Below, piece after piece: positions 1 through 3,628 of a DNA stretch of 5,474 nucleotides (position 1 is the stretch's first letter; every line of letters starts with the position of its first letter). The position numbers were made by a program, and so were the translations under genes. Source of the stretch: an uncultured Solobacterium sp. (GTDB taxonomy: Bacteria > Bacillota_I > Bacilli_A > Erysipelotrichales > Erysipelotrichaceae); NCBI GenBank assembly GCA_937910655.1, contig CALEMV010000080.1, positions 1 to 5,474 of the forward strand, in the 5' to 3' direction. The notes below the pieces were generated by a model. The model saw only the letters and a list, made by a program, of their open reading frames with translations. It made no database searches and was not told the origin of the DNA.

Positions 1-1144
1 CATTTACAAATAGTACTGGTAAGATTGCAAAGAGTGATGTTTCTGCACCATCATCGCCCCATGCCGCAAAAGTAATTGCATCAATATGATTTTCGATACA
101 TGCTTGAATTGCAGCTTTACATGCATGAATGCTGTAGCGATTATGTGGAATAAATCCCGTCCACTTCCAAGCCCCTCCTACAAATGAGATGTTCTGTGAT
201 AGCTTTTTATGTAGTTTTAGATTATCCGCATAATGTTGTTTATCTGTTGAGTAATAATCCCAATAAGCTAAATTTACATCTTCTGGAACTTTGATTTTTT
301 GAATTTGTTCCTGACTTAGATTGTAGTAACTACCATTTGCCGCAAGGCGGAAGAACATATCGCTCCACATCTGTAGTTCAAAATTGTATTTACTAGCAAT
401 CTCTCTTACCGTTTGTAAGTGTTGATTCATAATTTCCAAACGGTTTTGATAACCATGTTCACTTAGGTATTTGCCTAGGCCTAACATGAATGCTTCATCC
501 ATTCCAATGTTCACTTTTCGTGAATGGAATGCTTTGTCTAATGTTCTAAATAGATTTTCTAGGTATGTATATGTGCGAGTTGATCCAACAAGTAAGATAT
601 CATCGACATCAATCATCTTCTGATATTCTTCATATCGAACAATTTGATTCAGATGTGCTAATGTCTGCACGTATGGTCGCAAATCGATTCCGTACTGTTG
701 TGCATAAGTATCTAACTCTTGAATGTCTTTTACTGTATACGCTCCTCTTTGATAGCCAATATACGGTTCACCATCAATCTTTAACGTATCCTCCATGTAC
801 AGACCTAGAAATGTGTATCCCATAAAGGATAGATATCGAATAAATTTCTTCAATGTTGATATTTTCGGTACTGCATTTCTAGAACAATCCACCATTACAC
901 CAAGATCTTTTACTACACTTGTTTCTGTTTCATCATACTTTGTCGTTGTTAGTGAAAGTAGTGCACGATTTCTTTGTGGGATGGATGAATAAACAATTTC
1001 AATTTCATCATCACTAAAATAAACTTGATAACCATTAACTGTATCTTGTTTAAAAATGATCTTTTTTTGATTGAAATATGGCTTTAACCAATGATTTTCC
1101 TCTAAGAGGGATTGTAGATTTGTTTTATCTAGCATGTCTTCCAT
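1..1144 (-). CDS. GH20 beta-N-acetylhexosaminidase, GcnA-like (3' end beyond window)
   Basis: I translated the minus strand from ATG 1144 and found 381 codons open to the window edge, with no stop. Seen: the segment LGVMVDCSRNAVPK at residues 81-94, then YLSFMGYTFLGLYMED at 104-119, then GMDEA at 214-218, which holds the Asp216-Glu217 pair. MWSDMFFRL follows at 259-267 and AWKWTGF at 325-331. Known: GH20 enzymes use an Asp-Glu pair in substrate-assisted catalysis to release terminal beta-GlcNAc or beta-GalNAc, and the GcnA-like group is usually about 600 residues and often lacks a signal peptide. No signal peptide is seen here, so it is probably cytoplasmic; about 200 or more C-terminal residues lie outside. 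An in-frame ATG at 1135 is an alternative start. Neither ATG has a good ribosome binding site, unlike the minus-strand genes further right, which fits a damaged or artificial upstream junction. Confidence 0.9.
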   Translation of the reverse strand, partial: MEDMLDKTNLQSLLEENHWLKPYFNQKKIIFKQDTVNGYQVYFSDDEIEIVYSSIPQRNRALLSLTTTKYDETETSVVKDLGVMVDCSRNAVPKISTLKKFIRYLSFMGYTFLGLYMEDTLKIDGEPYIGYQRGAYTVKDIQELDTYAQQYGIDLRPYVQTLAHLNQIVRYEEYQKMIDVDDILLVGSTRTYTYLENLFRTLDKAFHSRKVNIGMDEAFMLGLGKYLSEHGYQNRLEIMNQHLQTVREIASKYNFELQMWSDMFFRLAANGSYYNLSQEQIQKIKVPEDVNLAYWDYYSTDKQHYADNLKLHKKLSQNISFVGGAWKWTGFIPHNRYSIHACKAAIQACIENHIDAITFAAWGDDGAETSLFAILPVLFVN

Positions 1145-1153
1145 AATTTCATT

Positions 1154-1170
1154 ATGTGTATAAGAGACAG
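1154..1170 (+). other. 17-bp exact match to Tn5/Nextera mosaic end
   Basis: ATGTGTATAAGAGACAG equals the last 17 of the 19 bases of the engineered Tn5 mosaic end used in tagmentation libraries; only the first two bases differ (TT instead of AG). The natural Tn5 outer end fits less well. In an adapter, the genomic insert lies on the side of the final CAG, which here is the right-hand side from 1171. This suggests an untrimmed adapter that joined two pieces of sequence. A chance match of this length is very improbable. Confidence 0.8.
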
Positions 1171-1261: not shown

Positions 1262-2221
1262 ATGAATTTATTGTCTAAACTTACATTTTTACCACCATGC
1301 AATCAGGTAAATCATTCTTATCAATTTAAGTGGTCTGCCTCGGGTTTTCAATTTACATTTATTGGTGAGTGTATTACATTACAGATCACCAGTCACCATA
1401 CACTATATGGTCCTGTGATTTTAGCAATCTTTGTGGATGATGAATTATTTCAGAAAATTGATTTAAAAGAAGGAAGTCATGCATATACCATTACATTCTC
1501 AAAACGGGAAATTATGCATGTTAAAATTATTCAGATTACCGAACTACAATATGGTTACTTTGAATTAGAAGACCTACAAACCGATGGAGAAATTTCTAAG
1601 TGGGATAAGCCATCGAATTCTATCCTTTGGATAGGAGATTCTTTGTCTGCTGGTTATGGTTTGGAAGCAGATACAACACCTCTTGTATTCAATACACATT
1701 ACGAGGATTGTACGCATGCATATCCTTATATGGTTTCGCAATTATTAAATGTTTTGCCTATCATTGTCGCATATAGTGGCAATGGCATCTTATCTCGCTG
1801 GATTCCAGAAACGGAAGATAAGCCAAACGATGAAGATATTTTACCTAGTATATTCCCTTACAACATAAGCGAAAATCCATCTTGGGTGATTATTAACCTA
1901 GGCACTAATGACGCATCCTTCACAAGAGGAATTTCCACACGTGAACAACGTTTCCAGGAACTATATATCAATTTCATTCAAAAACTAAAGATAAAGTTCC
2001 CTAATGCAAAGTTCCTATTATGTTATGGTCTCATGGAAGAGTCGCTCCTTTCTTCCGTTCAAAAAGTTGCCGTAGAAACATCTAGTCTATTTTTAAGATT
2101 TGATACTGCAACTGAAAAAGATGGCTTCTGTTTTGCAAGCCACCCTAATAAAACATCGCATATAAACGCTACACGTACTCTCATCAATTTCATTCGTACA
2201 CACAACGAGGAAAGCCTATGA
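1262..2221 (+). CDS. SGNH-hydrolase carbohydrate esterase, CE2 (acetyl esterase) type
   Basis: The protein has 319 residues. Residues about 1-110 are beta-rich, as in the N-terminal jelly-roll domain of family CE2; the SGNH hydrolase domain runs from about 118 to 312. Seen motifs: block I IGDSLSAGYG with nucleophile Ser127, block II Gly173 in SGNG, block III Asn216 in GTND, and block V His294 in SHPNKTSH. No acidic residue stands two or three positions before His294 (Ala292, Phe291), so it may work as a Ser-His dyad, as reported for Clostridium thermocellum CE2. Known CE2 enzymes remove O-acetyl groups from plant polysaccharides. No signal peptide is seen, so here it probably deacetylates an imported sugar or oligosaccharide; the substrate is unknown. 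An in-frame stop at 1250-1252 with no start between fixes the start at ATG 1262. Its stop overlaps the start of the rpiR-type gene by 4 bp, so the two are probably translationally coupled. Confidence 0.85.
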   Translation: MNLLSKLTFLPPCNQVNHSYQFKWSASGFQFTFIGECITLQITSHHTLYGPVILAIFVDDELFQKIDLKEGSHAYTITFSKREIMHVKIIQITELQYGYFELEDLQTDGEISKWDKPSNSILWIGDSLSAGYGLEADTTPLVFNTHYEDCTHAYPYMVSQLLNVLPIIVAYSGNGILSRWIPETEDKPNDEDILPSIFPYNISENPSWVIINLGTNDASFTRGISTREQRFQELYINFIQKLKIKFPNAKFLLCYGLMEESLLSSVQKVAVETSSLFLRFDTATEKDGFCFASHPNKTSHINATRTLINFIRTHNEESL

Positions 2222-2997
2222 TTCGAAACATCCGATTAAACACAAAAACCAAGCAGATTATCCAAAGTGTCTACCCAACAATGTCCTCTTTACAACAAAG
2301 TATTGCGGATTATTTCCTGGAAAATACTGAGCTTTTAGATTTCTCGTCAAAACGTATTAGTAAGATACTCTATGTCTCTGAACCAACCCTATCAAGATTT
2401 GCACAAAAGTGTAACTTTAAAGGTTATCGTGAGTTCATTTATGAATACAGCAGCGACCTTCAAAACTGCGAAATAGATTCATCCGATGAAAACCAGTATA
2501 TTAAAGAGAATATACAGAATCAGTATTTCGATTCTGTTAAGAAAAAGTGTATAGAGATCGCTGCTCAAGATTTTGATCACCTGCAAGGTATTCTAGACCA
2601 ATCCAGAAAGATATACATCTATGGTGAGGGCTTTGCGGCAACTATTGCAAATACATTTCAATATCGTTTAATCAATCTTGGTTATGATATTTCTATCATT
2701 CCAAATGTAGATTTTCTACAATTACGTTCACATCTCATCCAGCATGACGACTTATTCATCTATATCTCTATGCAGGATGAACCTACAATGGATTCAGTAT
2801 CCTTTACACATCTGCTAACGCATGAACCTTACGCAATTTATATCGGACAATCAAATACAAAACTAGGAAAAAAACCTACATTTACGGAGTTTTATCAAAT
2901 TCCAAACGCAAAAGATACAGTCTGTAGCCCATTAATTCCTTTTATTGTATTCATTGATTTATTGACAAATTATATTCGATTTAAATCCCAAAAATAA
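2218..2997 (+). CDS. RpiR-family transcriptional regulator (HTH + SIS)
   Basis: The protein has 259 residues. An N-terminal RpiR-type helix-turn-helix covers about residues 10-85, with the recognisable core SSKRISKILYVSEPTLSRF (43-61) followed by CNFKGYREF. A SIS domain covers about 118-250. Known: RpiR proteins sense sugar phosphates through SIS and control sugar and amino-sugar catabolism. Odd: the phosphosugar-binding loops are changed. The usual GxGxS is GEGFA (136-140), and the usual SxSGxT loop reads SMQDEP (184-189), so the ligand may be atypical or lost. The start is ATG 2218 with GAGG at 2207-2210, in an ATGA overlap with the esterase stop, which indicates one operon. Likely targets are the two palindromes at 1179-1220 and perhaps the agaS promoter; this is inference. 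The gene ends 4 bp before a strong terminator. Confidence 0.88.
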   Translation: MIRNIRLNTKTKQIIQSVYPTMSSLQQSIADYFLENTELLDFSSKRISKILYVSEPTLSRFAQKCNFKGYREFIYEYSSDLQNCEIDSSDENQYIKENIQNQYFDSVKKKCIEIAAQDFDHLQGILDQSRKIYIYGEGFAATIANTFQYRLINLGYDISIIPNVDFLQLRSHLIQHDDLFIYISMQDEPTMDSVSFTHLLTHEPYAIYIGQSNTKLGKKPTFTEFYQIPNAKDTVCSPLIPFIVFIDLLTNYIRFKSQK

Positions 2998-3110: not shown

Positions 3111-3575
3111 CTACCCTTTAAAAGGGTCTACATATTCTTTTTTACTTAGATTATCCTGTATCATATCTTCTTTTTCTTGATTTCGGATATACTCTTCTAC
3201 TACCTTCGTATTCAGTCCTACCGTACTTACATAGTAGCCCTTCGCCCAAAAGTTTCGATTGCCATATTTATATTTTAAATTTGCATGTTTTTCGAATATC
3301 ATCAATGATGATTTGCCCTTCAAGTATCCCATGAAACTTGATACTGCAATCTTTGGCGGCATCTTTACCAACATATGTATATGGTCTCTCATTGCATGTG
3401 CTTCTATGATTTCTACATCTTTATATGCACATAGCTGTCTCAATATCCCTCCTATATCTGCTCTTAATTTTCCATAAATTGCCTTTCTTCTATACTTTGG
3501 TATAAACACAATATGATACTTACAGTTCCATCTCGTATGTGATAAACTTGAATCGTCATTTGGCTTTGTTGCCAT
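3111..3575 (-). CDS. tnpA: IS200-family Y1 (HUH) transposase TnpA
   Basis: The protein has 154 residues, a normal full length for TnpA of IS200/IS605. Seen: HTRWNCKYHIVFIPKYRRK (13-31), the HUH metal-binding motif His65-Ile-His67 in RDHIHMLV, NFWAKGYYVSTVG (108-120), and the catalytic Tyr129 in EEYIRNQ, with Gln133. Known: such enzymes cut and join single-stranded DNA through a 5'-phosphotyrosine, inserting next to short target sequences without target duplication. All key residues are present, so it may be active. The start is ATG 3575, chosen because AGGAGG (3584-3589) lies 8 bases upstream; a TTG at 3623 in the same frame lacks support. The last codons overlap a hairpin (3113-3127). It lies downstream of agaF in the same direction but behind a terminator, with its own -10. 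Confidence 0.95.
   Translation of the reverse strand: MATKPNDDSSLSHTRWNCKYHIVFIPKYRRKAIYGKLRADIGGILRQLCAYKDVEIIEAHAMRDHIHMLVKMPPKIAVSSFMGYLKGKSSLMIFEKHANLKYKYGNRNFWAKGYYVSTVGLNTKVVEEYIRNQEKEDMIQDNLSKKEYVDPFKG
3113..3127. repeat. ACCCTTT/AAAGGGT hairpin across tnpA stop, copy a
   Basis: Seven-base arms ACCCTTT (3113-3119) and AAAGGGT (3121-3127) surround one base. It codes for the C-terminal residues of TnpA and reaches into the stop codon. It shares the CCCTT...AGGGT core with the hairpins centred near 3037 and 3064. Confidence 0.6.
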
Positions 3576-3583
3576 TGATATCT

Positions 3584-3589
3584 CCTCCT
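3584..3589 (-). promoter_or_regulatory. tnpA ribosome binding site with upstream anti-SD
   Basis: AGGAGG within AAGGAGGAGA sits 8 bases before ATG 3575 and decides that start. On the same strand, GCCTCC (3637-3632) lies about 45 bases upstream and is complementary to it. A transcript reading through from agaF would contain both and could hide the site. A transcript from the tnpA promoter would start after GCCTCC and would not. Structural hiding of the tnpA ribosome binding site is known for IS200; this pairing is inferred. Confidence 0.6.
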
Positions 3590-3603
3590 TATATTTTGAA
3601 TTT

Positions 3604-3617
3604 CGGTTGTCAGCCTT
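3604..3617. repeat. Inverted repeat flanking tnpA, leader arm
   Basis: CGGTTGTCAGCCTT is the partner of 3080-3093 (13 of 14 paired, core of 10 perfect). It falls at the very start of the predicted tnpA leader, so the 5' and 3' ends of a tnpA message could pair. Confidence 0.55.
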
Positions 3618-3622
3618 ATTCA

Positions 3623-3628
3623 ATTATA
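3623..3628 (-). promoter_or_regulatory. -10 element of tnpA
   Basis: A perfect TATAAT on the minus strand predicts a start near 3616, giving a leader of about 40 bases that contains the ribosome binding site. No good -35 is seen 17 bp upstream (AAGCGA), which fits the weak expression typical of IS200 transposases. Confidence 0.45.

Follow-up and report, generated by a model that had tools for sequence, protein, structure and literature searches.

Sequence comparisons show that the 17 bases ATGTGTATAAGAGACAG, at positions 1154–1170 on the plus strand of the window (the whole 5,474-nucleotide stretch of DNA analysed here), match the engineered Tn5 mosaic end exactly over their length, and we are slightly inclined to read them as what is left of a mosaic end from tagmentation (Nextera-type), lying in place between a GH20 hexosaminidase-like gene and an SGNH/GDSL esterase gene, which are likely neighbours. 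The weights attached to this and to the three other readings considered below are judgements and were not computed. A remnant of this kind would have arisen if trimming left most of the mosaic end on a Tn5-cut fragment beginning at position 1171, without the outer AG and the adapter arm, and the assembler then attached this fragment to the sequence on its left.

The 17-mer corresponds to bases 3–19 of the 19-base mosaic end (AGATGTGTATAAGAGACAG), with the insert side (the CAG end) facing right. The site agrees with the mosaic end at 17 of 19 positions, with the natural outside end at 15, and with the inside end at 13; the original prediction, that these bases equal the engineered end and that the natural end fits less well, is confirmed on both counts. 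The 19-base mosaic end is also printed in PMC8269240. The number of copies expected by chance on both strands of the window is 1.3e-6 from base composition and 1.2e-6 from dinucleotides; the window is AT-rich (35% GC), and the 17-mer is likewise AT-rich and is intergenic. Both the insert side and the orientation are as in Nextera/Tn5 mosaic-end contamination, and the first base 3′ of the 17-mer is a G. Neither the outer AG nor the Nextera arm is found next to it, TT and native-looking sequence standing there instead. A scan of the window, both ends included, with eight adapter sequences (matches of at least 10 bases) recovered just two hits, the 17-mer itself and a minus-strand 10-mer of P7; there is no second copy of the 17-mer or other Tn5 end in the window, and the bases flanking the 17-mer do not form a 9-base duplication (AATTTCATT versus GATATATTG).

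The site was predicted to lie between the hexosaminidase start and a palindromic region, and it does so. The GH20 hexosaminidase-like gene (2–1144, minus strand; PF00728, 38.4 bits) has its ATG from position 1144, with the first 381 residues present and the rest beyond the window end; it is separated from the 17-mer by a spacer of nine bases (1145–1153). In an alignment of 12 genus-level relatives the same methionine is the start in seven, a methionine three residues later is used in four, and P0048 is shorter. To the right of the 17-mer are two palindromes, GAAAGCGCTTTC (1179–1190) and GAAAGTACTTTC (1209–1220), which are 30 bp apart between the two genes and may be operators. These are followed by the CE2-like SGNH/GDSL esterase gene (1262–2221, plus strand; 319 residues, PF17996 and PF13472), one of whose relatives (P0149, 82%) is from Solobacterium, a genus of the Erysipelotrichaceae. 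Another SGNH relative, P0173, has a C-terminus ending in KDRKSVV, which we take to resemble a translated TruSeq adapter and thus presumably to be a library remnant at the contig end of a relative.

The start of an RpiR-family regulator gene (2218–2997, plus strand; PF01418) overlaps the SGNH stop. The RpiR gene has 94–99% identity to nine full-length clusters, several of them on long contigs, and of the SGNH clusters one stands at 99% with the next at no more than 85%; this contrast in identity, together with the lack of common contigs described below, could reflect a border of recombination or transfer between the overlapping genes. Farther to the right a lone IS200/IS605 transposase gene (3111–3623, minus strand) lies between the RpiR gene and genes for a PTS IIA protein and an AgaS-like isomerase; among plasmids, the nearest relatives of this transposase come from Enterococcus (76% over 94%). 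The IIA gene, on the minus strand beyond the transposase, scores 127.8 bits against NCBIfam AgaF, just below the cut-off of 130, and the AgaS-like gene, on the minus strand beyond IIA, scores 406.6 bits, below its cut-off of 529.2.

As a yardstick for how such sequences occur in assembled DNA we searched IMG/VR for the bare 17-mer, and found it in at least 120 stretches at no fewer than 127 sites. Among the matches listed, 125 of the 127 sites lie within 100 bases of a stretch end and point inwards, and 121 of the 127 have AG in front; the window copy, with neither AG nor arm, is unlike most of these adapter copies, which are terminal and carry both. The two exceptions to the terminal position among the matches listed are L005, where arm and AG are present behind a run of Ns, and L009. 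The commonest base after the 17-mer is a G (44 of the 127 sites among the matches listed), so the G that directly follows it in the window mildly favors a remnant. For comparison, two shuffled 17-mers of identical dinucleotide content have 3 and 0 records in IMG/VR, and the reversed 17-mer has 1.

We also looked at copies that, like that in the window, are not preceded by G, of which there are eight records in the whole of IMG/VR: four are interior remnants, three represent one natural viral gene, and one (L125) is an adapter at a terminus, with an altered base. In the first of the interior remnants, L121, one open reading frame matches the front of a P22-like portal protein and another its back, with about 220 positions of the portal profile between them unmatched. 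In L122 two ends separated by three bases form an inverted pair within one gene, both sides of which are collinear with gp53 of phage Panchino. In L127, two open reading frames correspond to positions 5–135 and 151–261 of one head-tail adaptor family; its flanks gave no match when compared with phages. The site in L126 is between tail chaperone and tape-measure genes, with a Nextera arm at the end of the same contig; a comparison of its flanks with phages matched over 275–432 of a 1101-base query, short of the site, and because no gene is visibly cut there this is the weakest of the four precedents. The phage comparisons of L126 and L127 thus say nothing for or against collinearity. Judged by sequence, the two sides belong together in each of the four, and none of them shows unrelated DNA joined at random through a mosaic end. 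All four are without AG, by choice of a search pattern that called for a non-G base in front, and the shortened, arm-less interior copies in L121, L126 and L127 resemble that in the window.

With an A in front, the 19-base mosaic end has no IMG/VR record, and with a T in front it occurs in 12 stretches, comprising eight with inverted pairs, three terminal copies, and one single interior copy (L142); one of the eight stretches with inverted pairs, L145, has in addition a second copy that is single and interior. These interior copies, at 3330 in L142 and 1373 in L145 (both minus strand), are complete 19-base ends, each standing singly and joined to non-adapter DNA.

The principal alternative is a native 17-mer whose identity to the mosaic end is fortuitous and which forms part of the GH20 core promoter, and to this we give somewhat less than an even chance. 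That the 17-mer can occur naturally is clear from L009 (1051–1067), L123 (3117–3133) and L124 (364–380), where an open frame of one viral gene runs through the site; these share with the window copy the same 17 bases, an interior position, and the lack of AG and arm, although the site in the window is intergenic and in the viral records it is coding. Four of the five independent interior copies with a non-G in front look like remnants and one is natural, and because of this ratio an in-place remnant is preferred to a native match. When the count is restricted to metagenome records, the types of which we assigned from record numbers, the tally becomes one remnant (L121) to one natural copy, which counts against the remnant reading.

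The promoter evidence is similarly divided. A −10-like hexamer, CATAAT, which matches the consensus at five of six positions (a consensus match only), lies six bases before the GH20 ATG (minus strand, 1155–1150), formed by the CAT of the 17-mer and the adjoining spacer bases, and its gain at GH20 argues against a remnant. SGNH has TAATAT (four of six) at the same distance of six bases from its ATG, a resemblance that favors native DNA; against this, the better SGNH hexamer, TATAGT (five of six), is just three bases from the ATG, and a promoter scan requiring both hexamers called neither the GH20 nor the SGNH elements. Placing the mosaic end beside random non-coding 9-mers yields such a −10-like hexamer in 2.8% of trials, a figure that is post hoc, as the feature was picked after inspection.

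A chance match would also accord with the Shine-Dalgarno duplex energies, which are +0.4 kcal/mol for GH20 and +0.6 kcal/mol for SGNH, amounting to no ribosome binding site in either, as compared with −5.9 for RpiR, −11.1 for the transposase, −11.1 for IIA, and −11.8 kcal/mol for AgaS; the median for random 20-mers of the window is −1.1 kcal/mol, and the second GH20 methionine has −3.3 kcal/mol. If the 17-mer is native, the GH20 transcript is predicted to be almost without a leader, as may also hold for SGNH. A fuller version, which we consider unlikely, although far from negligible, is that the 17-mer is the core promoter of a near-leaderless GH20 transcript paired with a near-leaderless SGNH transcript, with both under the control of two GAAAGYRCTTTC sites three helical turns apart, so that a compact divergent amino-sugar switch would contain a laboratory transposon end by accident. 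The missing GH20 ribosome binding site had been tied to an artefact in the original prediction; this does not hold, because the divergent partner SGNH, on the untouched side, is also without one.

In weighing these two readings, we set the exact match to 17 of the 19 bases, in the face of so small a chance expectation, and the four in-place interior copies in IMG/VR, where the altered 17-mers are so rare, in favor of a remnant. On the other side are the missing arm, AG and 9-base duplication, and the lack of any other adapter in the window or at its ends, along with the AT-rich, intergenic setting. The absence of AG and arm weakens assignment to the adapter remnants without excluding it, because the interior remnants in IMG/VR, selected for a non-G base, are without them too. 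We therefore place an in-place remnant somewhat ahead of a native promoter that matches by chance. The earlier reading as a library artefact is sound and slightly preferred, with four of the five interior IMG/VR copies on its side, although a native match retains a substantial share of the probability.

Are the two flanks of the 17-mer neighbours? For each protein cluster we took the length of its longest contig and compared these lengths between genes, and we infer from an identical length that the contig is the same. For the best 50 GH20 clusters (P0001–P0050) and 54 SGNH clusters (P0121–P0174, with P0175–P0183 left out) there are three exact lengths in common, 7490, 13340 and 71893, and at least three matches arise in 2 of 20,000 trials in which the lengths are jittered by as much as 10%. 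Homologues of GH20 and RpiR in other lineages (72 and 105 rows) have the lengths 15053, 28114 and 453169 in common, with three or more matches in 30 of 20,000 trials of the corresponding null. The comparison of SGNH (54 clusters) with the closest RpiR clusters (13, with P0197 and P0198 left out) served as a positive control and failed, with no common length; either the measure misses neighbours, or gene order differs in the relatives. The nearest relatives of GH20 and SGNH, each at 99%, are on different contigs (GH20 P0001, longest contig 3017; SGNH P0121, only contig 5407 bases). Searches for related loci with the SGNH protein and with a 13-row alignment found none in genome contigs or viral contigs, and blastn of 1000–2300 found no match in phages or plasmids. 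On balance, the common lengths indicate that GH20 and SGNH are probably true neighbours.

These observations bear directly on a third reading, in which two unlinked places or organisms were joined at the mosaic end to form a long-range chimera, such that the flanks are strangers. Joins at mosaic ends are a known route to chimeras, and three observations can be taken to point this way: L142 and one site in L145 each have a single full-length end in the interior of a contig, P0001 and P0121 have no contig in common, and within the genus no length is common to the clusters of SGNH and those of RpiR. Against it are the lengths common to GH20 and SGNH and those common to GH20 and RpiR in other lineages, as well as the flanks that belong together in all four interior IMG/VR remnants; a chimera would moreover require a break that fell nine bases ahead of a start codon while leaving a divergent pair. 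We regard it as very improbable, and the suggestion that 1–1153 and 1171 onward might not be adjacent in the genome is not borne out, in view of the three GH20/SGNH lengths and the intact flanks of the IMG/VR remnants. Least credible is the reading as a natural Tn5/IS50-like end, which can be set aside, as a fit of 15 of 19 bases to the outside end (and 13 of 19 to the inside end) is poorer than that to the engineered end, the sole transposase in the window is of the IS200/IS605 type and not the Tn5 type, and there is a single end with no 9-base duplication.

If the 17 bases are a mosaic-end remnant, only the short stretch between 1145 and approximately 1175, the expected place of the GH20 core promoter, would be unreliable. 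For now, some 30 bases ahead of the hexosaminidase start are best not relied upon, and the GH20 promoter in this record should, on the remnant reading, not be read or reused as it is. It had been proposed that both the divergent operon and the hexosaminidase promoter need re-reading; this applies to the promoter stretch, whereas the gene pair stands provisionally. More generally, it is clear from the IMG/VR scan that shortened, arm-less remnants of mosaic ends can occur in the interior of contigs and can split genes while gene order remains intact. For the locus described here the gene layout is usable even if the 17 bases are a remnant, and the divergent pair, the palindromes, and the SGNH promoter may provisionally be read as they stand.
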